28,391 nt of DNA from a virus. A program made the translations under genes and the position numbers. The stretch spans positions 1 through 28,391 of IMG/VR virus record IMGVR_UViG_3300025647_000202. The stretch is one strand, 5' to 3'. Positions 1 to 22,500 of the stretch are shown one piece after another (within the stretch, counting starts at the first letter, position 1; every line of letters starts with the position of its first letter). The notes beneath the pieces were generated by a model. It was not told where the DNA came from. It made no database searches and was given only the letters and a program-made list of their open reading frames with translations.

Positions 1-385
1 CAAGGTCGAGCGGTTTAGGATCAGCCTCGGGCTTAAGGAACTCATGCCACGGCATGTTCTGCATCTCGACGGTCGAAACTTTGCCGTCATTATTGACCTT
101 GAACTGCCCCTGTTTGGCAGTGTCTGTCTTATTTTCAGTGTCAAAAGTAACGCCAGCAAACGTCTCGAGGTACGGAATAATGTCGTTCGCACGAATAACC
201 TTTGCTTCCCTTGCCAGATAGTAGGCGCGAGTTAACAAGGAACAATCGCCACCCTTGCCGTTCTGCATAGTAGCAACACGATGCTCAGTAGCTGAAACAA
301 GCATGATATGCATGGCGTTCTTGACTTTAGTTACACCGCCAAGAAAAGACTTTTCAGCCTTGTTGAAAGTATCACGATGCGACAT
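1..385 (-). CDS. Leftward phage protein of unknown function, 5' part only
   Basis: An open frame of 128 codons runs leftward from an ATG at 385-383 and leaves the window without a stop, so only the N-terminal part is visible. The start is supported by a GAAAGGAA ribosome binding site at 391-398, seven bases upstream. The protein begins MSHRDTFNKAEKSFLGG and reads as a soluble, mixed alpha/beta protein with no membrane segment. A central stretch, GGDCSLLTRAYYLAREAKV, looks helical, and the visible end is rich in Asp, Lys and Pro. I do not recognise a family. It is the only leftward gene here and is divergent from the late genes, so it probably belongs to the early or replication arm of the phage. 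That placement is inference. Rightward frames in this interval are its shadows. Confidence 0.8.
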   Translation of the reverse strand, partial: MSHRDTFNKAEKSFLGGVTKVKNAMHIMLVSATEHRVATMQNGKGGDCSLLTRAYYLAREAKVIRANDIIPYLETFAGVTFDTENKTDTAKQGQFKVNNDGKVSTVEMQNMPWHEFLKPEADPKPLDL

Positions 386-404
386 TGTTTTTCCTTTCAG
401 TTTA

Positions 405-480
405 GCATTGCACTATTGCAACACAATTATCCCCACGATTGTCAGCCGTGGGGATTGTTCTATTGCAATTTGTTGTGTTA
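405..480. repeat. Nested direct and inverted repeats around a strong hairpin
   Basis: Nine bases, CTATTGCAA, occur at 413-421 and 460-468. AACACAA at 420-426 is the inverse of TTGTGTT at 473-479. Between them lies the hairpin at 429-455. The block sits immediately upstream of the ribosome binding site of the leftward gene, so it would lie in that gene's leader or at the end of an upstream leftward transcript. Confidence 0.6.
429..455 (-). terminator. Hairpin, possible terminator or leader structure of the leftward unit
   Basis: ATCCCCACG (429-437) and CGTGGGGAT (447-455) form a perfect 9-bp GC-rich stem with a 9-base loop. Reading leftward it is followed by AATTGTGTT, which is only weakly U-rich. 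It could end the candidate leftward RNA lying to its right, or serve as a structured leader or processing site for the gene starting at 385. The structure is seen directly; the terminator role is a guess. Confidence 0.4.
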
Positions 481-1070
481 GCTTGCCAATCCCATGTTCC
501 AGTGAGACATAGCAGGATTGAACGGGCGGTATCGGCTTATATTTACCTTTCAGGATTTACGGAAGCGATACACGTACTCCACATTATGGGTTGGCGAGAC
601 CTGTTAGTTTTGCGTACTTAAACGCGCCTTGTGTACCCTTAATTCGTGCTTGCTACGTCAAACGTCCGAATTGATTAGAGCTGTTAAACAATCGTCAATT
701 CATGGGGACAAGCTATTTTTTTATTATTTGGATATTACAGGACGCCCACATATAGTGCGCTTGCACCCTGTTACCTGCCACTTGTTGTCCAGTTAACGAC
801 ACTATACCTACGTCCCAACAAAGACGTGCCCCGTCAACCGCACGGATTTCCACCGCTCGCGCATGTACATTACCAGTACATTTCACCTACTTATTCCACT
901 AGGCTTTCGGGCGGTACGCTTGCGCGCAACCTATTGTCCGGTTCCATACTTACCTAGTAGCCCGCAGGCTACACCCTGATTTACCGTGACCCGCGAGGGT
1001 TGAGTGGCCTGCCCTAGGTGCCGGGCTATGTCGATGAGGGCATTTAGGGGATATTCGCCTATCGAGTAAA
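480..1070 (-). ncRNA. Candidate large structured non-coding RNA, leftward
   Basis: About 590 bases with no plausible protein frame and clearly higher GC than the AT-rich DNA to its right. The segment is dense in short perfect hairpins: 957-972, 913-931, 863-881, 825-844, 810-827, 786-801, 755-766 and 612-625. Strand choice rests on loops. Read leftward, the hairpin at 957-972 is capped by C(UGCG)G, a UNCG tetraloop, and that at 913-931 by GCAA, a GNRA tetraloop on a G-U-containing stem. Two heptaloops are closely alike: UGGUAAU at 875-869 and UGGAAAU at 852-846. The hairpin at 989-1000 is the exception, because its GNRA loop reads rightward. Boundaries are approximate. A large phage RNA class such as GOLLD is possible, but I cannot confirm a family from memory. 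Confidence 0.45.
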
Positions 1071-1098
1071 TATCTTTTATCGCATAGCTGATATGCAA
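1070..1098 (-). promoter_or_regulatory. Possible sigma70-like promoter for the leftward RNA
   Basis: Read leftward, TTGCAT (1098-1093) and AGATAT (1075-1070) are 17 bases apart and would start transcription near 1063, at the right edge of the hairpin-rich segment. Both boxes are imperfect and the DNA is AT-rich, so a chance match is quite possible. Confidence 0.25.
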
Positions 1099-1100
1099 AT

Positions 1101-1570
1101 TGTGCATGGCTTACACATACGCGCGTTCTTTATATATATGGGAAACAATAGGACAGCACTACTGACCTAACCTTTGGTTGAGCCAGGATTAAGAGAATAC
1201 AACTAAATGGTGTAGCTTTGACTATCTTGGAAGGTGCGGACAAAACGTGAACAATGAATAAATGTTTCCTGACAGGGTATGCACTAGGCGCATAACTCAC
1301 GCTATCTGGGATTGAATACGTAACGTAAACATACAATCAAATGGTGTACTTATTCACATATTTGAATATACCGATATAAACGCTAGGTGGGTTGGGAAGC
1401 TCACACAGTGGCCAAATATTTCTAGGTGGAATGATACCGGGCATTTGTTCCGCTTGTGTGTGGCCATTTATAGGGCTTTGAGAGCCATATGAATATAGTC
1501 TATTCGTAGGTATAGTGTCCTGATATAAAGATTCCTTTATGTGTTTCCTAATGGACAAGGAAAGCACAAT
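1101..1570. other. AT-rich stretch with no recognised gene
   Basis: Two leftward frames of 68 and 76 codons cross this stretch, but they start with TTG and GTG, have no ribosome binding site and do not look like proteins. I see no tRNA cloverleaf. GTGGCCA occurs directly repeated (near 1408 and 1460) in similar contexts. I see nothing else I can support. Confidence 0.5.
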
Positions 1571-1584
1571 ACATTCAAACTTTT

Positions 1585-1600
1585 AGATATAAACATATCT
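1585..1600. repeat. Inverted repeat AGATAT-AAAC-ATATCT
   Basis: Perfect 6-bp arms with a 4-base centre in AT-rich DNA. It could be a protein binding site or a weak hairpin. No function can be assigned from sequence alone. Confidence 0.5.
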
Positions 1601-1639
1601 TTATATGCTTAAATGGGAATGTGTCTAGGCGTGATACAC

Positions 1640-1653
1640 AATGTTATAACATT
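1640..1653. repeat. 14-bp perfect palindrome, operator-like
   Basis: AATGTTATAACATT reads the same on both strands. Ten bases further right, TGAATG-CT-CATTCA (1663-1676) is a second inverted repeat with different sequence. Both resemble dimer binding sites. No regulator gene is present in the window. Confidence 0.55.
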
Positions 1654-1716
1654 ACATCATATTGAATGCTCATTCAGAATAAACTACCTACAGTATTTAT
1701 TCCTAGCGTAGGACTA

Positions 1717-1763
1717 GGGGTGCACCTAGGGGTACAAGGGGGTGCGGGGGGGTGCACCGGGGG
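1717..1763 (+). repeat. G-run tract, predicted G-quadruplex
   Basis: Five runs of G on the top strand (lengths 4, 4, 5, 7 and 5, at 1717-1720, 1729-1732, 1738-1742, 1746-1752 and 1759-1763) are separated by 8, 5, 3 and 6 bases. This fits the usual pattern for an intramolecular G-quadruplex apart from one loop of 8. The tract also contains two copies of the palindrome GGTGCACC and short CTAGGGGT repeats. It stands alone in otherwise AT-rich DNA, between the palindromes and the rightward promoter. Confidence 0.6.
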
Positions 1764-1819
1764 ATGTACCACACCAAGAAAATTACTAAGAGAAATGTGC
1801 CACATAGTATAATTAACGT

Positions 1820-1849
1820 TAGGTAAGAAGCGCCTATAGTAATTACCTA
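1820..1849. repeat. Inverted repeat TAGGTAA / TTACCTA
   Basis: Seven-base arms (1820-1826 and 1843-1849) are separated by 16 bases. The spacer carries GCGCCTAT (1830-1837), which is repeated inside the promoter spacer at 1904-1911, 74 bases further on. The pair may mark a regulator site around the promoter. Confidence 0.35.
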
Positions 1850-1891
1850 TTGCTCATATACTAAAATCGCCTTAGCATACCATTTTAGGGA

Positions 1892-1920
1892 TTGACAGGG
1901 TTTGCGCCTATTGGTATAAT
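1892..1920 (+). promoter_or_regulatory. Consensus sigma70 promoter facing the late genes
   Basis: TTGACA (1892-1897) and TATAAT (1915-1920) are both perfect hexamers with the ideal 17-base spacer. Transcription would start near 1927, leaving a leader of about 240 bases before the first late gene at 2170. The promoter would be read by the host RNA polymerase. A perfect consensus promoter in front of late genes suggests control by the repeated palindromes just downstream, which is inference. Confidence 0.85.
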
Positions 1921-1960
1921 AAACTATAGGAACAAGAGAGATACGTAAGAACCCTATATA

Positions 1961-2095
1961 TTACTTAAGTAACTACTCTAGAGTAACGATAGCATAGTAG
2001 TTATACATACTTCAGTATTTATAATCATACTATAGTATAATTATTCCTAAACAATAAGTACCTAAACAGTATTACTTAAGTAAATACTTTAGTAA
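1961..2095. repeat. Array of six TACT-N-AGTA palindromes, operator-like
   Basis: Six related palindromes lie in 135 bases: TTACTTAAGTAA (1961-1972), TACTCTAGAGTA (1974-1985, centre two bases longer), ATACTTCAGTAT (2007-2018), ATACTATAGTAT (2027-2038), TTACTTAAGTAA again (2072-2083) and ATACTTTAGTAA (2084-2095). The shared half-site is TACT/AGTA. Spacing is uneven, with adjacent pairs at both ends. The array lies between the consensus promoter and the first late gene. It looks like multiple sites for one dimeric DNA-binding protein, or for a replication or packaging protein. Confidence 0.7.
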
Positions 2096-2117
2096 TATAG
2101 GGTATTCATATAATTCT

Positions 2118-2147
2118 TTTTCTTGTTATCATATTTTCTTGTTATCA
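2118..2147 (+). repeat. Two 14-bp direct repeats before the first late gene
   Basis: TTTTCTTGTTATCA occurs at 2118-2131 and 2134-2147, a 16-base period. The copies end 22 bases before the start codon at 2170. They could be phage promoter elements, packaging (cos/pac) sites next to the terminase gene, or regulator sites. Confidence 0.5.
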
Positions 2148-2169
2148 CAGCATAGGATTTGTTTAGGGT

Positions 2170-2664
2170 ATGAATAAGTTTAAGGCGACTAATGGAGTTC
2201 ATCTACTAAAGCCACTATTCTATGAACAGGCTTACGATGATCCCTCTAGGGCTTTGTACACACTAACGTATGAAGATCACCCCAAAGGCTATCTTTCTTT
2301 GTATAGGCTCTATCTGGAGATGGAGGATGTTACAGAGTTTGAGTTTGCCAATACTTACTTTGATGGTATGCCTCACTGGCGTAAACTATGTAAGTGTGGG
2401 TGGTTTAAACCTCTACTAGAGGAAATGCGTAATGACTTACAGTTGAAGCTACAGTCACGAGCCATTCGTGGCATTGCCATAGAAGCCTCAACAGATGATT
2501 CCCGTAATAAGTTTTCTGCACTAAAGTATCTGGCTGACAAGGGTTACGTACAGAAGGCAGACAGTAAACGTGGTAGGCCATCGAAGGAAGAGGTAGAGTC
2601 CACTAAGAAGCAGATTATCTCAGAAGACAATGAGCTTAATGAAATCCTACAAAGGTTAAACTAA
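2170..2664 (+). CDS. Terminase small subunit (probable)
   Basis: A soluble 164-residue protein. Small terminase subunits bind the phage packaging site and hand DNA to the large subunit. The middle (residues 48-110) carries a pattern seen in small terminases of marine podoviruses: an acidic helix around MEDVTEFEFA, an aromatic HWRKLCKCGWFKPLLEEM segment, then a helix rich in Arg and Lys and an SRNKFSALKYLADKGY helix. The C-terminal third is charged, with an RGRPSKEE AT-hook-like patch that could touch DNA. It is the first gene after the promoter and palindrome array. In T7-like phages the small terminase also precedes lysis and terminase genes. The ribosome binding site is weak (AGGA at 2154-2157). 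The large subunit lies about 5.8 kb downstream, separated by the fibre locus. Confidence 0.7.
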   Translation: MNKFKATNGVHLLKPLFYEQAYDDPSRALYTLTYEDHPKGYLSLYRLYLEMEDVTEFEFANTYFDGMPHWRKLCKCGWFKPLLEEMRNDLQLKLQSRAIRGIAIEASTDDSRNKFSALKYLADKGYVQKADSKRGRPSKEEVESTKKQIISEDNELNEILQRLN

Positions 2665-2665
2665 G

Positions 2666-2866
2666 ATGGCACCAGAGAAGTCCAAGGACGAGAAATTAGA
2701 TGAGCTTCTTCACAACTATGAGGTACTCCTTGAAGTTGCGGAGAAGGAACGTACTTGGACTGGCATTAAGAAGTGGCTAAAGGAAACAGTCATACTTATT
2801 GCCACAACCATCATTGTTATTTTTGGTGCAATCAAGGCTTATGTGGAGTATTTCAAGAATGGCTAA
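2666..2866 (+). CDS. Small one-helix membrane protein, holin candidate
   Basis: The protein has 66 residues. The N-terminal 40 are charged and helical (KDEKLDELLHNYEVLLEVAEKE). A single hydrophobic segment follows at about residues 42-59 (VILIATTIIVIFGAIKAYV), then a short charged tail. The start at 2666 has an AAAGG ribosome binding site ten bases upstream and lies one base after the small terminase stop. T7 places its 67-residue, one-helix class II holin directly beside the small terminase, so position, size and topology all fit a holin. The long charged N-terminus is less typical, and a second holin-like gene exists at 15500, so the role is uncertain. Confidence 0.6.
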   Translation: MAPEKSKDEKLDELLHNYEVLLEVAEKERTWTGIKKWLKETVILIATTIIVIFGAIKAYVEYFKNG

Positions 2867-3164
2867 AGACCCTCGCCTAGAACGTGCTGGTGTGTCTGGG
2901 TATAACAAACCTAAACGTACTCCCTCTCATCCTACCAAGTCTCATATTGTTGTTGCCAAGGAAGGTGACAAAGTTAAGACTATTCGCTTTGGACAACAGG
3001 GTGTAAAGACTAATCAGACTGCTGGGCAACGAGAAGCATTCAAGTCTCGTCATGCAAAGAACATCTCAAAGGGAAAGATGAGCGCAGCCTACTGGGCAGA
3101 CAAGGTTAAGTGGTCACCCTCTAAGACTAGTTCTCCTTCCAAGAAATGGGTTAAGGGTTCGTAA
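2859..3164 (+). CDS. Small basic phage protein of unknown function
   Basis: The protein has 101 residues starting at the ATG at 2859, which overlaps the previous gene by 8 bases. An upstream in-frame ATG exists, but it lies inside the preceding gene and would add an unlikely N-terminus. The sequence, MAKDPRLERAGVSGYNKPKR onward, with IRFGQQGVK, FKSRHAKNISKGKMSAAYW and a Lys/Ser-rich tail, is a type very common in marine phages and annotated only as a domain of unknown function. It is strongly basic, Lys/Arg-rich and has no membrane segment, so nucleic-acid or virion binding is possible but unproven. Its stop overlaps the next start by one base (TAATG). Confidence 0.75.
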   Translation: MAKDPRLERAGVSGYNKPKRTPSHPTKSHIVVAKEGDKVKTIRFGQQGVKTNQTAGQREAFKSRHAKNISKGKMSAAYWADKVKWSPSKTSSPSKKWVKGS

Positions 3165-3682
3165 TGCCTAAGATCACACTAAACAATATTGGCACTCTGG
3201 AGGACAACTCAGCACTAGCAAAGCTGAATGAAAACTTCCAGACTATTGTTGATGAATTTGATAACGTACCATCACGAGACGGTACTAGCCCTAGTGCTAT
3301 GCTTGCTGACTTGGACATGAACTCCAATCAGATTCTTAACCTACCAGACGCCACTACTGACCAAGAACCACTAACTTATGGGCAGTTCAATGTTTACTAT
3401 GCTGATATTCTTTCCAAGGCTGCACAAGTAACATCAGACAAGGCAGCGGTAGAGTCTCTTTATGACCAATTCGATGATCGCTATTTAGGCTCAAAGGCTT
3501 CTGATCCTTCTGTAGACAATGATGGTCAAACATTACTAAGTGGTGCTTTGTACTACAACTCAACGATACAACAACTAAAGTTTTACAATGGGTCTGCTTG
3601 GCAACGTATCAACCCCATTATCTCTGTGTCATCTACGGCACCGTCAAACCCAGAAGTAAATGATCTCTGGTTAGAAATCTAG
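3164..3682 (+). CDS. Tail fibre-associated structural protein
   Basis: The protein has 172 residues. The N-terminal half (LNNIGTLEDNSALAKLNENF, then SRDGTSPSAMLADLDMNSNQ and ILNLP) is a recurrent motif at the N-termini of tail fibre and adhesin proteins of many proteobacterial phages, where it is thought to attach fibre parts to the tail. The C-terminal part (GALYYNSTIQQLKFYNGSAW) is a short beta-rich motif also common in fibre proteins. It opens the fibre locus and has the AT-rich codon use of the phage backbone. An attachment or adaptor role is inferred. Confidence 0.7.
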   Translation: MPKITLNNIGTLEDNSALAKLNENFQTIVDEFDNVPSRDGTSPSAMLADLDMNSNQILNLPDATTDQEPLTYGQFNVYYADILSKAAQVTSDKAAVESLYDQFDDRYLGSKASDPSVDNDGQTLLSGALYYNSTIQQLKFYNGSAWQRINPIISVSSTAPSNPEVNDLWLEI

Positions 3683-3697
3683 AAAGGAATATACTAA

Positions 3698-4150
3698 ATG
3701 GCTGCTGGAACTTTTACACTCTACGATACCGTAGCTGAATTACTTGGGGATGGTACTATTGACCTAGATACCAACACTTTCAAGCTAATGCTAGCTACAT
3801 CTTCTTACACACCTTCTGCTGCACATGATGAGTATGCAGACGTATCAGGTGCCGAAGTAGCAAATGGCAATGGCTATACTACTGGTGGTGAAACTCTTAC
3901 TTCTGTTACTTGGTCACAGACATCAGGTGTAGCTACCTTTGACAGTGCTGACGTAGTATGGACTGCTTCTGGTGGTTCTATTACTGCTCGCTATGCAGTG
4001 CTCTATGATGACACCTCAACTGGTGATAAGCTAATTGGCTATGTTCTTCTAGACACTACTCCTGCTGATGTTACTGCCACTGATGGTAACACTCTCACTA
4101 TTGCTCCTTCAGCCAATGGTTGGTTTGATCAAACAGTAAATCCAGCTTAA
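3698..4150 (+). CDS. Virion protein of the fibre locus, unknown function
   Basis: The protein has 150 residues, begins MAAGTFTLYDTVAELLGDGT and is rich in Thr, Ala, Ser and Asp with few Lys or Arg, as in beta-structured virion proteins. The motif FKLMLATSSYTPSAAHDEYADV followed by a Gly-rich middle and an LIGYVLLD segment is a type I associate with small phage structural proteins next to fibre genes. A good ribosome binding site (AAAGGAA, 3683-3689) precedes the start. Function is unknown; association with the tail or fibre is inferred from composition and position. Confidence 0.65.
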   Translation: MAAGTFTLYDTVAELLGDGTIDLDTNTFKLMLATSSYTPSAAHDEYADVSGAEVANGNGYTTGGETLTSVTWSQTSGVATFDSADVVWTASGGSITARYAVLYDDTSTGDKLIGYVLLDTTPADVTATDGNTLTIAPSANGWFDQTVNPA

Positions 4151-4161
4151 GGATAGCCTAG

Positions 4162-5481
4162 ATGGCTGTATCACTTAAACATAACTTTGTATCTGCCGTA
4201 AGTGACGGTGGGGACAGCAACCTTGTTCAGCCTTCCAACTGGAACGAAGAGCATGTTCTAACTCTAGGTGCTTCAAAGATACTAGGGCGCTATACTGGTA
4301 CAACTGGTGCAGCACAAGAGATTACGCCATCTACTGGGCTTAACTTAGACTCTGGGACTGGTAACCTTACTGTAACTATCGGAACAGATGTTCAGGCATA
4401 CGACGCCACGCTGAACTCCATTGCTTCGCTTGGCACCGCCGCTGACAAATTGGCATATACTACCGGCGTAGACACTTGGGCCGAGACAGCCATTACCTCC
4501 TTTGGCCGGTCGCTGATTGACGATGCTGACGCTGCGGCTGCACGGACGACGCTGGGGCTTGAGTTGTATGCTGAAAGCCTAAGCAGCCCTATTTCACCAT
4601 CCGCTACTGGCATAAACACGGTGGCCATTGGAGATGGTGCGATTTCATCTGGTGGTATAGCTATTGGCACAAATGCCTCGACTACAAGTGGCCTTGCACT
4701 GGGTTTTAGCGCTACTTCAAGCGCAACTCAAGGGACCGCCATTGGCTATCAGGCGATTGTTCAGTCTGGATCATACGCAACTGCATTAACAAGATCCTAC
4801 GCTTCCGGCGCGGACTCCTTTGCAGTAGCCATCACCAACGCCTTCGGTTCCTACGGCGCTACCGGAGCAAACTCGGTGGCGATTGGGTATCAGGCGAAGG
4901 CAACTGGGGCAGATAGCATAGCAATAGGCGATGCGAATATTTCATCCGCACAGGGTTCTACCACCTTTGGCGGGGCCGGAAATACGGCCTCTGCGAGTTA
5001 TTCACTCGCAACTGGATATCAATCCCTGTCCAGCATTGTAGGTAAGTCGGCACGCGCCTCTGGTCAATTCTCGGCTCAAGGCGATGCCCAAACCGGTATT
5101 TTCGTTTTCCGCTCCGACACCACCGACGCAACGCCCGAAGCACTTACCACCAACAACAGCGCCGCGGGCACCACCAACCAAATCATCCTGCCCAACAACT
5201 CTGCCTACGCCTTCCACGGCACTATTGTGGCACGAGAGCAAGCATCGGCAGGCACCGACTGCGCAGCGTGGAAGATCGAGGGCTTGATCCGGCGTGAGGG
5301 CAGCGCAGGGACGACAGTGCTGGTGAACAGCGCCACGACTGTCATCGACAACACGCCATCTTGGGGCTTGGCACTGAGCGCAGACACAACAAACGGTGGC
5401 CTCAAGATTGAAGTGACTGGGGCAGCAGCAACCAACATTCGGTGGGTCGCTACGATCCATACGTCTGAAGTAACCTACTAA
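4162..5481 (+). CDS. Tail fibre / adhesin with YadA-head-like repeats
   Basis: The protein has 439 residues. Residues 1-77 form a backbone-type attachment region (NFVSAVSDGGDSNLVQPSNW). Residues 78-133 (AYDATLNSIASL, ADKLAYTTG, DDADAAAARTTLGL) are a linker widespread in tail fibres of proteobacterial phages and prophages. Residues 152-295 carry repeats of the type SVAIGYQAKATGADSIAIGD, which match the left-handed coiled YadA-head trimeric adhesin fold. Residues 308-439 form a beta-rich C-terminal domain. It probably forms a trimeric fibre or spike that contacts the host surface. Base composition changes to higher GC near codon 78 (about 4393), which suggests that everything after the attachment region was exchanged. 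Confidence 0.8.
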   Translation: MAVSLKHNFVSAVSDGGDSNLVQPSNWNEEHVLTLGASKILGRYTGTTGAAQEITPSTGLNLDSGTGNLTVTIGTDVQAYDATLNSIASLGTAADKLAYTTGVDTWAETAITSFGRSLIDDADAAAARTTLGLELYAESLSSPISPSATGINTVAIGDGAISSGGIAIGTNASTTSGLALGFSATSSATQGTAIGYQAIVQSGSYATALTRSYASGADSFAVAITNAFGSYGATGANSVAIGYQAKATGADSIAIGDANISSAQGSTTFGGAGNTASASYSLATGYQSLSSIVGKSARASGQFSAQGDAQTGIFVFRSDTTDATPEALTTNNSAAGTTNQIILPNNSAYAFHGTIVAREQASAGTDCAAWKIEGLIRREGSAGTTVLVNSATTVIDNTPSWGLALSADTTNGGLKIEVTGAAATNIRWVATIHTSEVTY

Positions 5482-5491
5482 GGAGGCCACG

Positions 5492-5791
5492 ATGGCTATT
5501 CAACTCGACCTGACCAACAGCCAGTATGGCACCCCGTTTGCTGGCGCTTACTTCCGCATCGTCACTGCGGCTGTCTCTCGTATGCGCGAGGGTGGCCCCA
5601 AGTTCACTGTGATGATTGATGTCTCTGGCTATGCCACGGCTACTCCGGGCGACGATACACGCGAGGTGGACTTCCGGCGCTACCATGCCGATCTGGCCGA
5701 GGTGGAGGCCGCCGCTGGCGCTCAGTTCCTCGATAAGTGTTATGCGTGGGTCATGGCGCAGGACGACATGAACGGGAGCGTTGCGGTCTAA
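5492..5791 (+). CDS. Small fibre-locus protein, unknown function
   Basis: The protein has 99 residues, with a strong AAGGAGG ribosome binding site at 5481-5487. The sequence (MAIQLDLTNSQYGTPFAGAY, then a VTVMIDVSGYAT-like beta segment and a helical HADLAEVEAAAGAQFLDKCY end) looks like a compact alpha/beta protein without signal peptide or membrane helix. I do not recognise a family with certainty. Similar small proteins occur beside fibre genes in proteobacterial phages and prophages. It shares the GC-rich composition of the cassette, and its stop overlaps the next start by one base. Confidence 0.65.
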   Translation: MAIQLDLTNSQYGTPFAGAYFRIVTAAVSRMREGGPKFTVMIDVSGYATATPGDDTREVDFRRYHADLAEVEAAAGAQFLDKCYAWVMAQDDMNGSVAV

Positions 5792-6150
5792 TGAGCATCG
5801 TCATCGACTACACCAAGGGTTTCTTTGAACCGTCACCTGCTAGTGAGACAGTCGGTGACATTGCATCCAGCACGCTTGATCTGGCTTCGGGCAACGTGTT
5901 TTCGGATGCACCATCTGCCAACGTGACCTACGTCTTTAGCAACCCGCCTGCATCTGGCACTGCCTACGGCTTCACGCTCAAGGTGACGCCCTCTGCGACG
6001 GTGACTGTGACTTGGCCTGCCTCGGTTGACTGGGCTGGTGGGACGGCCCCTGACGCCCCTGCAAGCGGCGAGACAGATGTATATGCGTTCTACACGCAGG
6101 ATGGCGGCACCACCTATTACGGCTTCCAAGCTGGGGATGCGATGGCATGA
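5791..6150 (+). CDS. Small beta-rich fibre-locus protein, possible receptor-binding tip
   Basis: I choose the ATG at 5791, which overlaps the stop of the previous gene (TAATG). An in-frame start further upstream would lie inside that gene. The resulting 119-residue protein is rich in Ser, Thr, Val and Gly. It has a pattern of short beta strands (NVTYVFSNPPASGTAYGFTL, TVTVTWPASVDW, TDVYAFYTQDGGTTYYGF) seen at C-terminal ends of fibre proteins. It lacks Cys and membrane segments. It may be a separately encoded fibre tip or decoration. There is no clear ribosome binding site, so translation is probably coupled to the upstream gene. Confidence 0.6.
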   Translation: MSIVIDYTKGFFEPSPASETVGDIASSTLDLASGNVFSDAPSANVTYVFSNPPASGTAYGFTLKVTPSATVTVTWPASVDWAGGTAPDAPASGETDVYAFYTQDGGTTYYGFQAGDAMA

Positions 6151-6944
6151 GCATTGCGAGGATGATGCAGATGGCGGCCGCTGGCGTGAGTGCTGGTGGA
6201 GTTGCGTTCAGCCCTGCCGACATTAACGACCTTCACTTATGGCTTGACGCCAGTGACGCTTCGACACTGTTTCAAGACACATCTAAGACGACCAGTGCGT
6301 CAGCAAACAACGACCCGATTGGTTGTTGGGCTGACAAGTCTGGCAATGGATTTGACCACGACCAAAGCACAAACGCTTACAGACCCTATCTCAACACGAG
6401 CCAAATGAACCTAAATAGCCTTAGTTTCAATGGGTCTCTAAACTCAAACTATGGGCAATGGCTAGAAAATTCTACCTGCACAGACAATATAACTTGGTTT
6501 GCCGCCTTCCACCTTACAAACTCAGGTGTTCTTGTTGGTCAGGGTGCTAGCATCAACGGTTATCTTCTTTTTCATTCGGGAACTAGTGGTCAATCTAATT
6601 ATATGGGAACAAATGCTGGCTATAGGAACGCCAACAGCAATATAACAATGAGCAGAAATGTGGACACAATTTGCTCTGGTGATATGGTTAATTTCATTCG
6701 TCGAAACGGAGTGCAAGCCCCTATGTGCGGCCCGTTTAATACTACCCCCAACCCGTTTGATTACAATGGTGGAGTGAGTGCAGATATTGGAACATATATT
6801 GGTCGTCGAGGACTGTCTCCAACTAACCACCAACCGTTTGATGGCTACATAGGTGAGGTTATTACATATGACAGACGACTATCATCAACCGAAATTGGTC
6901 AGGTTGAAAGTTACTTATCCAAAAAATGGAGTATCACAATATGA
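6147..6944 (+). CDS. Lectin-like (LamG / jelly-roll) fibre-locus protein
   Basis: The protein has 265 residues and overlaps the preceding gene by 4 bases (ATGA). After a short Ala/Gly-rich start, residues 25-265 show a concanavalin-type jelly-roll pattern. This includes LHLWLDASDASTLFQD near the start, WADKSGNGFDHDQ, SLSFNGS, ITWFAAFHL, and the closing FDGYIGEVITYDRRLSSTEI plus QVESYLSKKWSI, typical of LamG-like domains. Such domains usually bind sugars, so it may recognise host surface polysaccharide. Its second half is AT-richer than the flanking cassette genes, which hints at a separate origin. The fold is recognised by pattern; ligand and location are inferred. Confidence 0.7.
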   Translation: MSIARMMQMAAAGVSAGGVAFSPADINDLHLWLDASDASTLFQDTSKTTSASANNDPIGCWADKSGNGFDHDQSTNAYRPYLNTSQMNLNSLSFNGSLNSNYGQWLENSTCTDNITWFAAFHLTNSGVLVGQGASINGYLLFHSGTSGQSNYMGTNAGYRNANSNITMSRNVDTICSGDMVNFIRRNGVQAPMCGPFNTTPNPFDYNGGVSADIGTYIGRRGLSPTNHQPFDGYIGEVITYDRRLSSTEIGQVESYLSKKWSITI

Positions 6945-7369
6945 TTTATGTAAAAGTAGTTGATGGAGAGGCAAGTGATTTTCCTTACGATTTGCGCCAG
7001 TTACGCGCCGACAACCCGAACACATCTTTTCCGAAAGAAATAAGCACTGAGATGCTAGAGGGCTATGGTGTCTTTCCGGTGGTGGAAAATAGACCTGAGT
7101 GCGACCCGTATGTTCAGACGCTGTCTGCTGGCACACCTGTCTTGCGCGATGGTCAATGGCAGGTTGATTACACCGCCGCCAATATACCTGAAGCGGAAGC
7201 CGAGGAAGCCATTAGGAATACGCGCCACGAGATGCTCTATGCAACCGATTGGATGGCTTTGTCGGATGTCACTATGTCAGACGAGATGAAATCTTATCGT
7301 CAGGCACTTCGTGATATACCAGAACAAGAGGGCTTTCCGTATAGCGTGATCTGGCCCACCAAACCTTGA
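6941..7369 (+). CDS. Tail fibre assembly chaperone-like protein
   Basis: The protein has 142 residues from the ATG at 6941, which overlaps the previous stop (ATGA). An in-frame ATG 15 bases upstream is less likely. The C-terminal third, RHEMLYATDWMALSDVTMSD, then YRQALRDIPEQEGFP and a final WP, matches the phage tail assembly chaperone pattern (Pfam Phage_tail_APC type: R..L...DW....D......YRQ.LRDIP). The N-terminal half (FPYDLRQLRADNPNTSFPKE) is also typical of fibre assembly proteins. Such proteins help fold or attach the fibre encoded upstream, so it probably travels with the cassette as the partner of the fibre and lectin-like proteins. Confidence 0.75.
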   Translation: MIYVKVVDGEASDFPYDLRQLRADNPNTSFPKEISTEMLEGYGVFPVVENRPECDPYVQTLSAGTPVLRDGQWQVDYTAANIPEAEAEEAIRNTRHEMLYATDWMALSDVTMSDEMKSYRQALRDIPEQEGFPYSVIWPTKP

Positions 7370-7377
7370 GGTAAGCC

Positions 7378-7539
7378 ATGCTCGGTTTCTCCTCACTGGC
7401 GTCTGCGCCGCTTGCTGATGACGGGCTTGTCGCTGGGTTGGGTGCTGGCGCTATCAAGTACGTTGCCGCGACCTGCCAGCCAACACTACAAATCCGTTTA
7501 CTCCAGTGTGGCCACAGGAGCCATAACAGGTGGCTATAG
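7378..7539 (+). CDS. Small fibre-locus ORF with a probable broken 3' end
   Basis: A 53-residue frame begins MLGFSSLASAPLADDGLVAG, an N-terminus seen in small genes next to phage fibre genes, and has a GAGGT ribosome binding site (7368-7372) six bases upstream. After about residue 32 the sequence turns Cys/His/Arg-rich and loses protein character (CQPTLQIRLLQCGHRSHNRW). From 7476 another frame reads PANTTNPFTPVWPQEP and then stops at 7524-7526, which looks like a genuine C-terminus. So the gene looks like a GC-rich head joined out of frame to the tail of a backbone gene. It may be a recombination scar. It overlaps the next start by 10 bases. Confidence 0.5.
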   Translation: MLGFSSLASAPLADDGLVAGLGAGAIKYVAATCQPTLQIRLLQCGHRSHNRWL

Positions 7540-8450
7540 CATTTCAAACTAATGCGTTCCAAAAGAATGCGTTTCAAGCTGCTGACGACAAATCTGTAAC
7601 GATTACAGGTGGGTCTATTGAGCTTGCAGGAAATGCTGTATCTGTAGTCACACCTAATACAAGAAATATTTCTGTTGGTTCAGTAGAGTTAAATGGACAG
7701 CAACCTAGCGTACTAACACCTCGTCTAGTTAGTATTTCCAGTGGCTCTGTTGAGTTAGACGGCCAACAAGTATCTGTATCAACCCCTGTCCTTGTAACTA
7801 CTGTTGCTGGCTCATTAGAACTAGCTGGTAAACAACCAAGCGTTCTTACACCAAGACTGGTTACCTTAACTAACGGTAATATTGAGTTACTAGGACAGAC
7901 AGTTACTGTTTCTACACCTCGACTTGTTTCTGTAGTAAAAGGTAACATTGAGCTAGCAGGTCAAGCACCAGCCGTCAATCTTTCTGGTAATAAGAGAATA
8001 GACTTAAACTTTGGTGCTATTGAACTAAACGGTCAATTACCAAGTGCAGTAGCAACCACAGATGTCTATCTTTACCCAGCTAAAGCAGATATTGAGCTAA
8101 AAGGTAAAACGCCTACAGTACAAACTCCTGTAGACATTACAGTACAAAAGGGTTCTGTAGAGTTATCAGGAAATGCAATAACTGTAATTGCGCCTCTAGT
8201 TCCTTTAACTGGCTCTATTGAGCTTAAGGGTTATGAACCTTTTGTTGGCAAGGGTGCAACGGCATTTATTGTCTCTGGCTCTATCGAACTGTCTGGTAAC
8301 CAAGTAAGTGTTATACGTCAGACAAGTATCTACGAATTTGATGGAGCTAGCTGGAATAGAGGTGTTCTCTGGAAGTATAACGGAGTAACATGGGAAAAGG
8401 CTGAACTTAAACGATGGAATGGTTCAGCATGGATAGTAGCACAAGGATAA
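7530..8450 (+). CDS. Fibre-like protein of eleven ~22-residue repeats
   Basis: The protein has 306 residues and starts at GTG, with an AGGAG ribosome binding site at 7515-7519. After a Phe/Ala/Asn-rich start (AFQTNAFQKNAFQ), a motif like GSIELAGxxxSVxTPxLV recurs at residues 28, 50, 72, 94, 116, 138, 162, 186, 208, 228 and 250. The spacing is exactly 22 for the first six copies and 20-24 afterwards. The last 40 residues (YEFDGASWNRGVLWKYNGVTW, RWNGSAW) resemble small Trp/Asn-Gly binding motifs at fibre ends. The regular alternation of beta segments suggests an elongated beta solenoid. Codon use is that of the AT-rich backbone, unlike the genes before it. A tail-fibre or spike role is likely but not proven. 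Confidence 0.7.
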   Translation: MAIAFQTNAFQKNAFQAADDKSVTITGGSIELAGNAVSVVTPNTRNISVGSVELNGQQPSVLTPRLVSISSGSVELDGQQVSVSTPVLVTTVAGSLELAGKQPSVLTPRLVTLTNGNIELLGQTVTVSTPRLVSVVKGNIELAGQAPAVNLSGNKRIDLNFGAIELNGQLPSAVATTDVYLYPAKADIELKGKTPTVQTPVDITVQKGSVELSGNAITVIAPLVPLTGSIELKGYEPFVGKGATAFIVSGSIELSGNQVSVIRQTSIYEFDGASWNRGVLWKYNGVTWEKAELKRWNGSAWIVAQG

Positions 8451-8453
8451 CAT

Positions 8454-9992
8454 ATGTCTTCCAAGATAGACCAGATCAGAGAAGCAGCAGAAGCAGACTT
8501 AATCAACTTCATTAAATTAGTCCACCCACAAAGGGTACTAGGCTCTGTTCATGAAGAAGTAATTAGGTGGTGGACAAGAGAAGATGCTTCTAGTCATCAG
8601 CTACTACTGCTTCCTCGTGACCACGGTAAATCAGCTTTAGTTGCATATAGAGTAGCTTGGGAGTTGACAAAGAACCCACATTATCGTATACTATACATAA
8701 GTAGTACGGCTAATCTAGCAGAAAAGCAACTAGGTTTTATTAAACAGATTCTTACTTCAAAGATTTATCGTAAAGTCTGGCCAGAGATGGTTAACGAAGA
8801 AGAGTCCAAAAGAGAAAAGTGGACTAACAGTGAAATCTCAGTGGACCACCCACAACGTAAGGCAGAGGCTATTCGTGACCCTAGTATCTTTACAGCAGGT
8901 CTTACCACAACTATTACTGGCCTTCACTGTGACATCGCTGTACTGGATGACGTTGTAGTTAGAGAGAATGCCTACACAGAAGAAGGAAGAGAACGAGTAC
9001 GAAGCCAATACTCACTTCTTTCATCTATTGAGGGTAGTGATCCTAGAGAATGGGTCGTTGGAACAAGATACCATCCAAAAGACCTTTACAATGATCTACA
9101 GGCAATGCAAGTAGATGACTACAATAAGAACGGTGAGTTAGTTGGTTCTTATTCTTTGTACGAGACATTTGAACGACAAGTAGAAGATCAGGGTGATGGA
9201 ACCGGGGAGTTTCTTTGGCCCCGTCAACAACGATATGACGGTAAATGGTTTGGGTTTGACGCCTCTATTTTAGCTAAAAAGAGAGCACAGTATTTAGATA
9301 AGCTACAGTTTCGTGCTCAGTATTACAACAACCCAAACGATCCAGACAATGCTGCCATCAATCCTGAGTACTTCCAGTACTATGAGCCAAGGCTACTGAC
9401 TAGGCAGGGTGGTAAGTGGTTCTACGGTAACAAAAAGCTAAACGTATTTGCTGCTGTGGACTTTGCATTCTCACTACGTAAGAAGGCTGACTTTACTGCC
9501 ATTGTAATCGTAGGTATTGACTCAGACAACAACTACTATGTGTTAGACATAGAACGTTTCAAGACTGACAAGATCAGTGACTACTTCGACAAGATACTTC
9601 GTATGCACCAGAAGTGGGACTTTAGGAAGCTAAGAGCAGAAGTAACCAGTGCACAGAGTGTCATTGTTCGTGATCTAAAAGATAATTACATTCGTAGGCA
9701 TGGTCTTGCTTTGTCTATTGAGGACTTTAAGCCTAACCGTCATGCAGGATCAAAAGAAGAACGTATTGAAGCCATTCTTCAGCCAAGGTATCACAACAGG
9801 CAGATTTACCACTACATGGGTGGTAACTGTCAAATCCTAGAAGAAGAGCTAGTGCTTCAGAATCCACCTCATGATGACGTTAAGGATTGTCTGGCTTCTT
9901 GTATTGATAGTGCAGTAGCCCCAACAGCAATAAAGGCTTCTGTAGCATTCAGAAATAAACAGCCAGTATCTCGTTTTGGAGGATATGTCTAA
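8454..9992 (+). CDS. terL: Terminase large subunit (packaging ATPase/nuclease)
   Basis: The protein has 512 residues. It powers DNA translocation into the prohead and cuts the genome at the end of packaging. The ATPase domain carries a Walker A-type P-loop, PRDHGKS, at residues 54-60, and a Walker B motif, IAVLDD, at 161-166, with a later motif region at VVGTRYHPKD (201-210). The RNase H-like nuclease domain begins near residue 331 with AAVDFAFS (acidic D336), has E396 in RAEVTSAQS, and has the HDDVKD motif at 473-478. All expected acidic residues are present, so it appears intact. It follows the repeat fibre gene by 4 bases and is followed at once by the portal gene, its docking partner at the head vertex. 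Confidence 0.92.
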   Translation: MSSKIDQIREAAEADLINFIKLVHPQRVLGSVHEEVIRWWTREDASSHQLLLLPRDHGKSALVAYRVAWELTKNPHYRILYISSTANLAEKQLGFIKQILTSKIYRKVWPEMVNEEESKREKWTNSEISVDHPQRKAEAIRDPSIFTAGLTTTITGLHCDIAVLDDVVVRENAYTEEGRERVRSQYSLLSSIEGSDPREWVVGTRYHPKDLYNDLQAMQVDDYNKNGELVGSYSLYETFERQVEDQGDGTGEFLWPRQQRYDGKWFGFDASILAKKRAQYLDKLQFRAQYYNNPNDPDNAAINPEYFQYYEPRLLTRQGGKWFYGNKKLNVFAAVDFAFSLRKKADFTAIVIVGIDSDNNYYVLDIERFKTDKISDYFDKILRMHQKWDFRKLRAEVTSAQSVIVRDLKDNYIRRHGLALSIEDFKPNRHAGSKEERIEAILQPRYHNRQIYHYMGGNCQILEEELVLQNPPHDDVKDCLASCIDSAVAPTAIKASVAFRNKQPVSRFGGYV

Positions 9993-11798
9993 GTGGTAGG
10001 CAAAGTTTTAGACTTAAAAGACATTATCATTGAGGACCAACTAGGCACTCGTATTGCTGAACACTGGCATACGTGGAATAACTCACGCCAGAACTGGTTA
10101 AATGAAAAGAAGGAAGTCCGCGAATATGTGTATGCTACTGATACTCGTCGCACTACTAACGGGGCTTTACCTTGGAAAAATACGACCCACATACCCAAGT
10201 TATGTCAAATCCGTGATAACCTTTATGCAAACTATCTTGCATCAATGTTTCCTAAGCGTAAGTGGATGGTTTGGGAAGGTGAAACAGAAACTGACCAAGA
10301 CAAGGAAGAAGTAATCTCCAACTACATGCAGTGGGTTGTTTCTCACGGCTGGTTCAAGGAAGAAGTTGGTAAGTTAGTTCTGGACTACATTGACTATGGT
10401 ACGTGCATTGGCACTGTAGAGTGGGTTGATGAACGAGTAGAATTAGAGGACAAGACACAGGTAGGCTACGTAGGCCCAAAGATCAGGCGTATTAGTCCTA
10501 CTGACATTGTGTTTAATCCTGTGTCTCCTAGCTTTACGAAGACACCAAAGATTGTCCGTTCTCTTGTCACTATGGGTGAGATGAAGGACATTATCGAAGG
10601 GTTTTCTAATGATTCCGAAGCCTATGAACAGGCCAAGGAAATCTTTAAGTACATGCGTGAAATTCGTTCTGAGCAAGCAGAATACGTAGGAAACATAGAG
10701 GTTAAAGATGACTATTATAGTCTGGATGGCTTTGATTCTTATCGTCATTACCTTAGTAGCGACTATGTAGAACTCCTGACCTTCTATGGTGACATCTACG
10801 ACCACGAGACAGACACTCTGCTTAAAAACTATGTCATTACTGTAGTAGACCGTCACAAGGTTCTATACAAGAAGCCTAATCAGTCATTCTTTGGCTATGC
10901 TCCCTTTGCCAGTGCCGTATGGCGTGTACGACAGGACAACCTCTGGGGTATGGGTCCACTAGATAATCTTCTTGGTATGCAGTATCGTATTGACTCTGTA
11001 GAAAACCAGAAGGCTGACATGATTGACCTTACCACTGTTCCACCACTCAAGATCAAGGGCTATGTAGAAGACTTTGAGTGGGGTCCAATGGAAAAGATTT
11101 ATGTGGGTGACGAGGGTGACGTAGACATTCTACTTCCTAACTTCAATTCAGTAGCCCACAACGTAGAAATACAGACATACGAAAACCGAATGGAAGAAAT
11201 GGCTGGATCACCAAAGGAAGCTATGGGTTTCCGTACTCCCGGTGAGAAGACAGCATATGAAGTACAGCGTCTAGAGAATGCTGCTGCACGTATCTTCCAG
11301 AGCAAGATTGCACAGTTTGAGGAACAGGTAACAGAACCTCTGTTAAACTTTATGCTAGAGCTTGCCAAGCGTAACATGAACAAGACAGTCATTCGTGTAA
11401 TTGATGATGAGTTTAAAATTTCTGTATTCCAAGACTTGACTGCTAACGATATTACTGGTGCTGGACGTATCAAGCCTATTGCTGCACGACACTTTGCAGA
11501 GAAGGCAGAGTTTATCCAGAACATTAACAACTTCTATTCATCTGGCGTAGGTATGGACCCAGAAGTCCGTATTCACCTAAGCTCAGTGAAGCTGGCGGAT
11601 ATGATTAATAGTGTCCTAGATGCAGAGGATTATGAAATCTTTACGCCATACATTCGACTAACAGAACAAGCAGAAGCTCAGAAGCTACAGGGTGTGCAAC
11701 AAGAGGATGTCATGATGAATGCCATGACTCCTGCTGGTTTGACACCTGATGATGTGGAGCTAGCAGCAGAGGATTTTAATGTCGAAGAACAACCTTAA
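9993..11798 (+). CDS. Portal protein
   Basis: The protein has 601 residues starting at GTG, directly after the terminase stop, with GGAGG at 9978-9982 as ribosome binding site. The only nearby ATG, at 9985, is in another frame that stops after four codons. Portals form the 12-subunit ring through which DNA enters and leaves the head. Typical features are the N-terminal YATDTRRTTNGALPWKNTTH segment, DYIDYGTCIGTVEWV, RISPTDIVFNP, the central SAVWRVRQDNLWGMGPLDNL with GMQYRIDSVENQKADMIDLT, and EKTAYEVQRLENAAARIFQS with the long helices of the stem and crown. The C-terminus is acidic. Length and order next to the large terminase match podovirus portals. Confidence 0.9.
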   Translation: MVGKVLDLKDIIIEDQLGTRIAEHWHTWNNSRQNWLNEKKEVREYVYATDTRRTTNGALPWKNTTHIPKLCQIRDNLYANYLASMFPKRKWMVWEGETETDQDKEEVISNYMQWVVSHGWFKEEVGKLVLDYIDYGTCIGTVEWVDERVELEDKTQVGYVGPKIRRISPTDIVFNPVSPSFTKTPKIVRSLVTMGEMKDIIEGFSNDSEAYEQAKEIFKYMREIRSEQAEYVGNIEVKDDYYSLDGFDSYRHYLSSDYVELLTFYGDIYDHETDTLLKNYVITVVDRHKVLYKKPNQSFFGYAPFASAVWRVRQDNLWGMGPLDNLLGMQYRIDSVENQKADMIDLTTVPPLKIKGYVEDFEWGPMEKIYVGDEGDVDILLPNFNSVAHNVEIQTYENRMEEMAGSPKEAMGFRTPGEKTAYEVQRLENAAARIFQSKIAQFEEQVTEPLLNFMLELAKRNMNKTVIRVIDDEFKISVFQDLTANDITGAGRIKPIAARHFAEKAEFIQNINNFYSSGVGMDPEVRIHLSSVKLADMINSVLDAEDYEIFTPYIRLTEQAEAQKLQGVQQEDVMMNAMTPAGLTPDDVELAAEDFNVEEQP

Positions 11799-19518: not shown

Positions 19519-22500
19519 ATGGCAGAGTGGTCAAATAAAAATCCTGCTGTCTCTTCTGGTATTTCTTGGTCAGATAATACTTTAAGAATTGGAGACAAAC
19601 AGGCTAGGACAAAGGCTGAGACTATACATGGTGCTCTTGGTGAATTTTCACCCGGAGTCGAATCTCTTTACTCTTCTTTGCTAGCTGATGGTAATGACAC
19701 ATCTTTTAGGGAACAGTATAGTTCTCAGGAAATGACTGATCTAGAGGAGGCTAGGTATGCTGGCATATCTGATATTCTATCTGGGTATTCTCAAGAAGAA
19801 ATTAGTAAAAGGTTCGAAGGATTAGCAACATTTGATCCTGCTACAGCCATGACGCCACTTAGCATTAATCTTGAAAAGGGTTATGCTCAGAATATGGCTG
19901 ACTTTGTAGATAGTTATCGTCAAGTTAGAGCTTACGATATAGACTATGGAGACTTTTTTAATTATCGGAAAAATCTAGAAGATAAGGTGCTAGACCAGAT
20001 TGCTTTTTACAAGGGTTTTGAAGAAATCAATAGCTACCTAGAAGACCTAGACGAAGGCTTAACATCATATGACTTTGTAGACTTTTTCCAACAAGGTTTT
20101 CCTCTTAGGGGTGCAGCCTTGCAGATGAATGAAATTCCTAGCTTAGAGAATTTATCGTATCTTGCCGGACAGAACCTTAAAGAAACTGTAGAGTTTATTC
20201 GCAATATTGAAGACCCAGCAGAGCGTTTGAACCAGTCAAGGGCTTTGATAACTGCTATTGCTGAGGATGGTACTCTACCTTCCCCTGATGTTGCTGCTAA
20301 AGTAGCAGATGCTATTCTGCATGGTTTTGATAAAGAATCAGCTTTCTGGGACAATATCTTTATTCATGGTTCCGATGCTTTATTTGTTCCTTGGATAAAG
20401 GGACTAAGGGGTGCTGGTAAGGTAGCTGGTTCAAGCGCAGGAAGAGCTAGGGCTTACATAAAGGGATTATCCAGTAGGAAACCTCTTGTCGAGACAGCCC
20501 AAGAACTAGGTGATAATATCGAAATTGCTAAGTACGAGATGGTGAACACTACACTATCTGATACTATCGACGATATGACACGAAATTACCCAAGTTTGTT
20601 TAACTACCCTTCTATGGCAGAGGGTAAAGCTAACATTGGATCAGCGGCGGCTCGTCAGATTTCTGATAGGTTAGAGGCAAACACCTTTGAAGCACTAGAG
20701 AAGATTCGTAGAGTTGGCTCTGTAGATAGGGTTACTCTAGAACAACTTGATTTGGCTGCAAAGGCTACTGAGACTCGTGTTAAGCGTTGGGCAAAAGGAC
20801 TAGAAAAACACGTAGTTGATATAGGGGAATCTATCAGGTTTAACGATCTTACCAATAACTATACTTATGCTATGCGCTTTGGGTATGGTGGTGCTCCATT
20901 CCCTTCAAAAAGTGCAGCTATTGACTTTGCTGAGAACCAAATTGGTTTTACAAAGAACTTTGACTATAGAGAGATTGGTGAAGGTAGGTGGTTTGTTGAG
21001 ACAGAGTTCCCTATTGATGAAACTAAAGGGATTATATCCTCTGTAAAGGATGTTGAAGTCACAACAAAGTTTGCTTCTAATGGTGATCGTATTGACTGGC
21101 TTACAGATATTCTTGATAAACCATTACTTAATAACCTTAGTCCTCGTGGTGTTCGCTCTATTGTAGACAAGGCAAACATGGGTGCTAGACTTTCTGCCGT
21201 CCACGGAACAGAGGCTCTTGTTGAGGCTATTGAACCTCTCGTAAGGAGTCTTAATAAGTTTACATTCTCTAAGCAAGACCGTAACGAAATCAACCGTATT
21301 CTTCACATACAGCAGGCTACCTACAATAAAAAGACAAAAACTGAGGGTGTGTATTTTGAGACAGTATCCGAAGTGGAGAAAGCCTTCTTTAATGAGTTTG
21401 GTAAGTATCCAAAGGAAGGGCAGATAGAAGCTATTCTTTCATACAAATCTATATCTGACATAGAGTTCTTTATGCACGAACTAGATATTATGAAGAACCT
21501 TCAAAGGGTAGGAAGTATCAAGCTAGAGGTAGAAGCCTTAGCAGGTAAGAAGAAAGAAAAAGTCGCTGTTAGTGGATTTGCACGGCCTGTTGACTTAATT
21601 CCTTTCTCAGAGGATGCACCAAAGAGAGTAGCTTTTATTGACGAAAAGGGAAATGTTAGCTTTAAGACATACAGTAGGTCTTATACCACAGAGTCCAGTA
21701 AAAAGTTCTTTGATGACTTTACGAATGACGGCTCTGCTGAAATCTTTGAGGCTGTTTGGAATCCAATTGATATTGGAGATGATGTTGCTCACTTTGTTGT
21801 TTCAAAGAAACAGGCAGTAAAGAACAGGATTAGCCCCGGTAACTTAGGCTATAACTTTGGTGGTCACAGTCTTTATGAGGCTGGTTGGGGAATTAAACAG
21901 CCAAAGCTAAGAGGCAAGGAAACTGGAGTAAAGTACTATACTGGGGATGAAGTTCTTCTTCTTGCGCACACAGAAAAGCAAGCTCGTGCTCTTACGGATG
22001 CCATCAACAAAGCTAAAGCTAGCCTTGCTAAAGGTACTGACGAGTGGAAAGAAATTCGTAAGGAAAAGCTGTACTTCTGGAAAGAAGAAGAGTTTGAAAA
22101 AGTACTCAGGAAGAGCTTTAGCTTAGATGATACTGTCCCATTTTCTGTAGTAAGGAGTGGTCAACGCTCTATTGACACCTACAATTACTCTACTCCACAG
22201 GTTAGGGTAATTGATTCTACTGAAGGTGTTTACTCACCTTTGGGAGAGATGGATCGTGCCTTCTCTCAGACAAGACAGCAGTCTAAGTTGCAGACTGTAA
22301 TCGAGGAGAGTAATGGTCATATGCGTCTTGAGAGGGCTAGGAAGCTAAGTCCAGCAGTTGCCCTTGAGACTGGCCTTAAGAATGAGATACCAAAGCGTAT
22401 CAAAAGAGACTACATCTATCGTTCAATGAACGACCTTATGAGGAACTTAGCTCTTAGGGATAAGAAAGTTTTCAATGAAAACCTAGAGAAGATTATTAAC

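Follow-up and report, generated by a model that had tools for sequence, protein, structure and literature searches.

What does a marine phage do with almost 600 bases, at the early end of its genome, in which no protein appears to be encoded? The question is raised by positions 480-1070 of the viral record IMGVR_UViG_3300025647_000202 (28,391 nt, hereafter the window, meaning the whole stretch analysed), which had been predicted from the letters alone to specify a large structured noncoding RNA. In the reading favoured here, whose chances seem roughly even, the first early transcript begins with this region as an untranslated 5' portion, which provides an accessory RNA that is released by RNase III and acts early on the host. 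The first stretch transcribed after infection would then probably be an RNA of ~600 bases without a protein product.

To judge from its terminase, portal, capsid and tail genes, the 28.4-kb record is a Cobavirinae-like podovirus; its TerL is ~70% identical to those of Roseobacter phage SIO1, Celeribacter phage P12053L, and Lentibacter phages ICBM1, ICBM2, and ICBM3. The locus lies in a divergent intergenic region (386-2169), with a leftward early gene on one side (phrog_1448, 2-385, minus strand, the first early gene, which runs off the window) and rightward late genes on the other, starting with phrog_8035 (2170-2664, plus strand). In cultivated cobaviruses, the genome ends are short direct terminal repeats located in this intergenic region (PMC6775973). 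Positions 1725-1796 of the window resemble the G+C-rich 5' end of the terminal repeats of SIO1, ICBM3, P12053L, and several contigs, and a probable direct terminal repeat of the genome is placed at 1605-1776, with inferred bounds. Together with the early/late layout, the match assigns 480-1070 to the early side of the junction and to the left end of the linear genome. The same intergenic region contains a perfect consensus promoter directed towards the late genes (1892-1920, plus strand; TTGACA, 17 nt, TATAAT, with a TG before the -10), which is also kept in the sister phage L003. Between this promoter and the first late gene lie long inverted and direct repeats (1946-2110, with TTACTTAAGTAA present twice and arms of 32 nt), kept in both L003 and L004. 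Further into the genome, a 1589-residue protein is encoded at 19519-24288 (plus strand), of which only residues 1015-1383 weakly match an internal virion protein family. A contig of another sample, L014, is 99.98% identical to window positions 3999-10368, and the phage is thus present in more than one sample.

That the ~590 bases hold no credible protein frame was confirmed by codon log-odds: the best leftward ORFs are negative per codon (-0.16 for 713-886 and -0.20 for 931-1107), compared with +0.23 in the early gene next to them and a median of +0.35 across chunks of late genes. The region had also been described as GC-richer than the DNA around it; its GC content is 53-55% over 800-1100 but only ~44% over 500-700. 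Assignment to a known class, with GOLLD as the example given, was not borne out, as cmscan of 380-2200 at E<=10 returned zero Rfam matches and nothing in the window reached gathering scores. The hairpins and loops that had been named are indeed present on the leftward strand, namely a 6-bp hairpin with a C(UGCG)G tetraloop (957-972), another of 6 bp with the loop UGGUAAU (863-881), and stems with a GCAA tetraloop (913-931) and the loop UGGAAAU (840-857), but the last two, read from the sequence, are weak (4-5 bp including G-U). A 5-bp hairpin, ACGUC/GACGU with an 8-base loop, is found at 810-827 (minus strand). As marks of structured RNA, however, such hairpins fail: there are 3 with Watson-Crick stems of 5 bp or more, versus 2.8 expected, and 15 with stems of 4 bp or more, versus 11.1 (P=0.16). 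The folding energy of 478-1038 is also at chance (z=-0.36 leftward and -0.91 rightward), although z-scores are not diagnostic here, as SIO1, with a covarying core (see below), scores +2.3. The preference for one strand is seen in UNCG- or GNRA-capped hairpins, enriched on the leftward strand only, but the enrichment is mild (P about 0.02-0.03). A possible 3' domain (480-714, minus strand), in which AGCUUG-CCCAUG (714-701) pairs with CAUGGG-CAAGCU (496-480), comes from a predicted fold and may reflect chance. The longest long-range helix, a possible end-to-end pairing of GACAUAGC (1032-1025) with GCUAUGUC (513-506; 506-1032 overall, minus strand), has 8 bp, a length that is usual in shuffles. 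By itself, the window sequence makes a weak case for a structured RNA.

The predicted extent of 480-1070 runs almost exactly from a promoter to a hairpin. The predicted first early promoter (1032-1070, minus strand) consists of a -35 TTTACT (1065-1070), a 17-nt spacer, and a -10 CTAAAT (1042-1047), with a predicted leftward transcript start near CATCG, at about 1036. Among ~150 loci, the pattern TTTACW-17-CTAWAN-4..7-CATCG was matched only by the window and by loci L112 and L122; it occurred in 0 of 2000 shuffles of 386-2169, a test that is post hoc since the pattern was drawn from these three sequences themselves. At least two more loci with the pattern, L216 and L224, were found in a later scan of the collection. 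At the other end, the sole strongly non-random fold, located just outside 480-1070, is a 21-bp hairpin with internal loops (415-469, minus strand; z=-4.8, 0/300 shuffles), likely an RNase III-type processing site, which abuts the Shine-Dalgarno region of the first early gene. The z-score is -4.8 for window positions 301-500 and likewise for the last 95 nt before the gene. Most relatives have similar hairpins 20-35 nt ahead of their first ORF, with a median z of -2.5 over 17 loci, as compared to -4.8 in the window and a median of 0.05 for late-gene controls. By analogy with T7 early mRNA, 415-469 is probably cleaved by RNase III. The candidate noncoding RNA body thereby delimited is of about 570 nt (470-1036, minus strand); it neither shows a coding signal nor matches Rfam, and shares its slot with a covarying family of the relatives.

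This family, R1, was recognized as a noncoding element common to SIO1, ICBM1, ICBM2, and ICBM3, located between the early promoter and the first early gene; in ICBM1, annotated genes begin only at 911, which is 740 nt past the terminal repeat. The motif GCAAGNNCTAGCAANCAAGNG from this element matched 29 viral stretches, 27 of which carry the element, although some come from copies of one and the same phage. When 25 were aligned, two covarying 5' helices emerged with a covariation score of 0.379; shuffles gave 0.115 (0/500), and slid pairings no more than 0.112. One pair is seen as C-G, G-C, G-U, and A-U. The corresponding covariance model has 29 members at 52-110 bits, the matches to sequences from which it was built being so by construction. 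In one subgroup, a 3' three-way junction is placed directly ahead of the first early gene. In the junction, 97.9% of cells are paired, both sides have changed in 10 pairs, and the covariation score is 0.574 versus 0.275 in shuffles; its loops GCCAAC and CUUGA are invariant in L100, L103, L106, L110, L114, L116, and L119. The TTGACA of subgroup B was considered as a second promoter and rejected, as it is a conserved loop of this three-way junction. The covariation establishes R1 as a real structured RNA. It starts at CATCG (CATGG in one subgroup), shortly past a promoter-like -10 box, with the conserved core beginning at the predicted +1, and is found in one copy per genome and not at other promoters. 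Its motif gave only chance matches in bacterial and archaeal genomes. The ICBM1 left end matched only unrelated eukaryotic Rfam families at E<=5, far below cut-off, and the left ends of L019, L112, L122, and L015 matched nothing in Rfam. A term search of the cobavirus genome paper returned no R1-type RNA. R1 is thus a new RNA family, present in four isolates (SIO1, ICBM1, ICBM2, and ICBM3) and more than 20 metagenomic relatives, and absent from Rfam 15, no model of which matched the left ends scanned.

Does the RNA of the window belong to R1? By position it does: its slot lies directly after the first early promoter and before the first early gene, with the start at CATCG, and a long hairpin precedes the first ORF as in the R1 relatives. 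Moreover, L112 and L122 carry R1 (80.6 and 78.3 bits), and the phrog_1448 gene is found downstream of the slot in both, as in the window, in L122 after one small ORF. By sequence it does not, and the window is accordingly not filed as an R1 member: the R1 model reaches at best 8.9 bits (E=3.7) in the window, with no match in 386-1130, and the R1 core GCAAGNCCUAGCAANCAAGNGGNC is missing. Smith-Waterman comparison of the window RNA with all left-end RNAs gave no alignment that clearly beats shuffles; GGUUGAC is common to the window RNA, L112, and L122, and a shared UAAGCCG was also noted, but both may be due to chance. No homologue of the RNA body was obtained by blastn, motif scans, or Smith-Waterman: blastn of 380-2200 against phages returned nothing, the early-gene protein used as bait in viral contigs found none, and two window-specific RNA motifs gave only chance matches in viral contigs. 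Of the R1 core, L216, whose promoter is of the same type, retains at most a decayed version (13.3 bits, E=0.54), suggesting that the core may erode; the window RNA may represent a further step of this erosion or else an RNA of another kind that occupies the slot. It is, in any case, a plausible, if unproven, instance of a structured slot RNA. Overall, the original prediction is partly supported: the leftward strand and the location in front of the gene at 385 agree with the promoter, the synteny, and the relatives, and the extent and slot are right, while its evidence was weak and its GOLLD suggestion wrong.

What else the slot can hold is indicated by the sister phage L003, which over 1573-8661 is 98.9% identical to the window. 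Positions 1-1573 of the two phages are unrelated save for one 73-nt promoter block (1041-1113, minus strand; 93% identity by blastn) that ends at the -10 hexamer, and blastn found no similarity to L003 between this block and the left end of the window. The two sequences part at the -10 box, which looks like a point of cassette exchange. After the shared block, L003 has a leader of ~34 nt and then, in the place of the RNA, small ORFs identified from their length and ribosome-binding site; the codon scores of these ORFs are negative or close to zero, a common feature of small early genes. As the promoter is kept in L003 while ORFs replace the RNA, the cassette is accessory, and what the aligned genomes display is, on sequence grounds, a natural RNA-for-protein exchange between sister phages. 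Used as bait for relatives, the promoter block recovered L003 only. P12053L, L036, L059, and L032 have the same promoter block with ORFs soon after, the first three with short leaders. The slot has other occupants too: L019 contains ~800 noncoding, GC-rich nt directly before the first ORF (60-860, minus strand; z=-2.8), for which no homologues were found in phage records. L015, whose terminase is the nearest to that of the window beyond the window's own species, has a ~390-nt rod-like inverted repeat at its early end (2010-2400, minus strand; z -11 to -14 on either strand). A tentative generalization, less likely than not, is that cobavirus-like phages possess a first-expressed slot by the genome end with exchangeable cassettes, including several classes of large structured RNAs that might act in trans and do the early anti-host or anti-defence jobs performed by proteins in sister phages. 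The classes meant, just as tentatively, are R1, the window's own type, the 800-nt L019 type, and the rod-shaped L015 type.

For the window itself, we infer the following course of events. Host RNA polymerase would start near 1036 and transcribe leftward, yielding about 570 nt of noncoding RNA; RNase III would then cut the 415-469 hairpin, thereby separating this RNA from the message of the first early gene; and the freed RNA would act as such during the opening minutes of infection, contributing to host takeover or counter-defence as early-slot proteins usually do. Two serious rivals remain. In the first, which we regard as unlikely, the action of the RNA would be confined to cis: it would serve the early operon as a long leader, through HK022 put-like antitermination, for instance, or by protecting or regulating the first early message. 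Its place at the 5' end of the early transcript agrees with this, as do the conserved core starting at the predicted +1, the 3' hairpin next to the Shine-Dalgarno region, and the lack of an RNA polymerase of its own in the close isolate SIO1 (PMC6775973). Close relatives nonetheless do without the RNA, the same promoter being followed by the ~34-nt leader in L003 and by short leaders in P12053L, L036, and L059, and the RNA is present once per genome and not at other promoters. That the slot is dispensable also weighs against an essential function in packaging or replication and, to a lesser degree, against an obligatory antiterminator.

The second rival, less likely again, is that 480-1036 is an unstructured or decaying spacer left by cassette exchange, function being confined to the promoter and the pre-gene hairpin. 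The R1 model mismatch and the ordinary folding energy of the body speak against the favoured reading; without homologues, the window sequence could be such a spacer, and the chance number of hairpins agrees. However, its positional equivalents in relatives are conserved RNA, and weak folding energy is not evidence against an RNA, since a proven member such as SIO1 can fold no better than shuffles; in addition, dense phage genomes rarely retain 600 nt without function. It is very improbable that the region works as DNA, in the early promoter region or in terminal-repeat processing or packaging signals as at the T7 left end, for despite the nearby terminal repeat (about 1605-1776) and the early/late junction, the family of the relatives covaries as base-paired RNA from the predicted +1 and is absent from phages with the same ends.

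The accessory early RNA preferred here bears on a standing puzzle, that of large phage RNAs without known function such as GOLLD and ROOL. In phages that can be cultivated (SIO1, ICBM1, ICBM2, and ICBM3), a strongly covarying new family occupies what is probably the first locus to be transcribed, and near-identical phages differ in having RNA or protein in the slot, making deletion, swap, and complementation experiments directly possible.

Among known systems, the left-end RNA of SIO1, ICBM1, ICBM2, and ICBM3 is like that of the window in slot, CATCG start, and noncoding nature, and the R1 members L112 and L122 in promoter type and downstream phrog_1448 gene as well, whereas the window is without the core and scores at background. 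The pRNA of phi29 is noncoding as well and is likewise specified by the left end of the genome, but it is an essential packaging part, while the left-end element is missing from relatives and has no Rfam match. GOLLD and ROOL are large noncoding phage RNAs of similar length, but neither Rfam model matches the window, even at E<=10, and they often lie near tRNA islands (PMC12286853), whereas the window, only part of the genome, contains no tRNA gene. The left-end RNA resembles HK022 put in its location near the early transcript start and in a possible cis action on host RNA polymerase. The put RNA is ~70 nt and present at both early promoters, in contrast to the single copy, 300-850 nt, and dispensability of the left-end RNA. 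Finally, the early mRNA of T7 is cut by RNase III, and its early leader has an RNase III site before gene 0.3. The window shares with it an untranslated leader past a left-end promoter and a ~20-bp hairpin with internal loops just before the first early gene, at 415-469. Unlike T7, SIO1 has no phage RNA polymerase, and the T7 leader is shorter than that of the window, whereas in the cobavirus relatives the leader is itself a conserved structured RNA.
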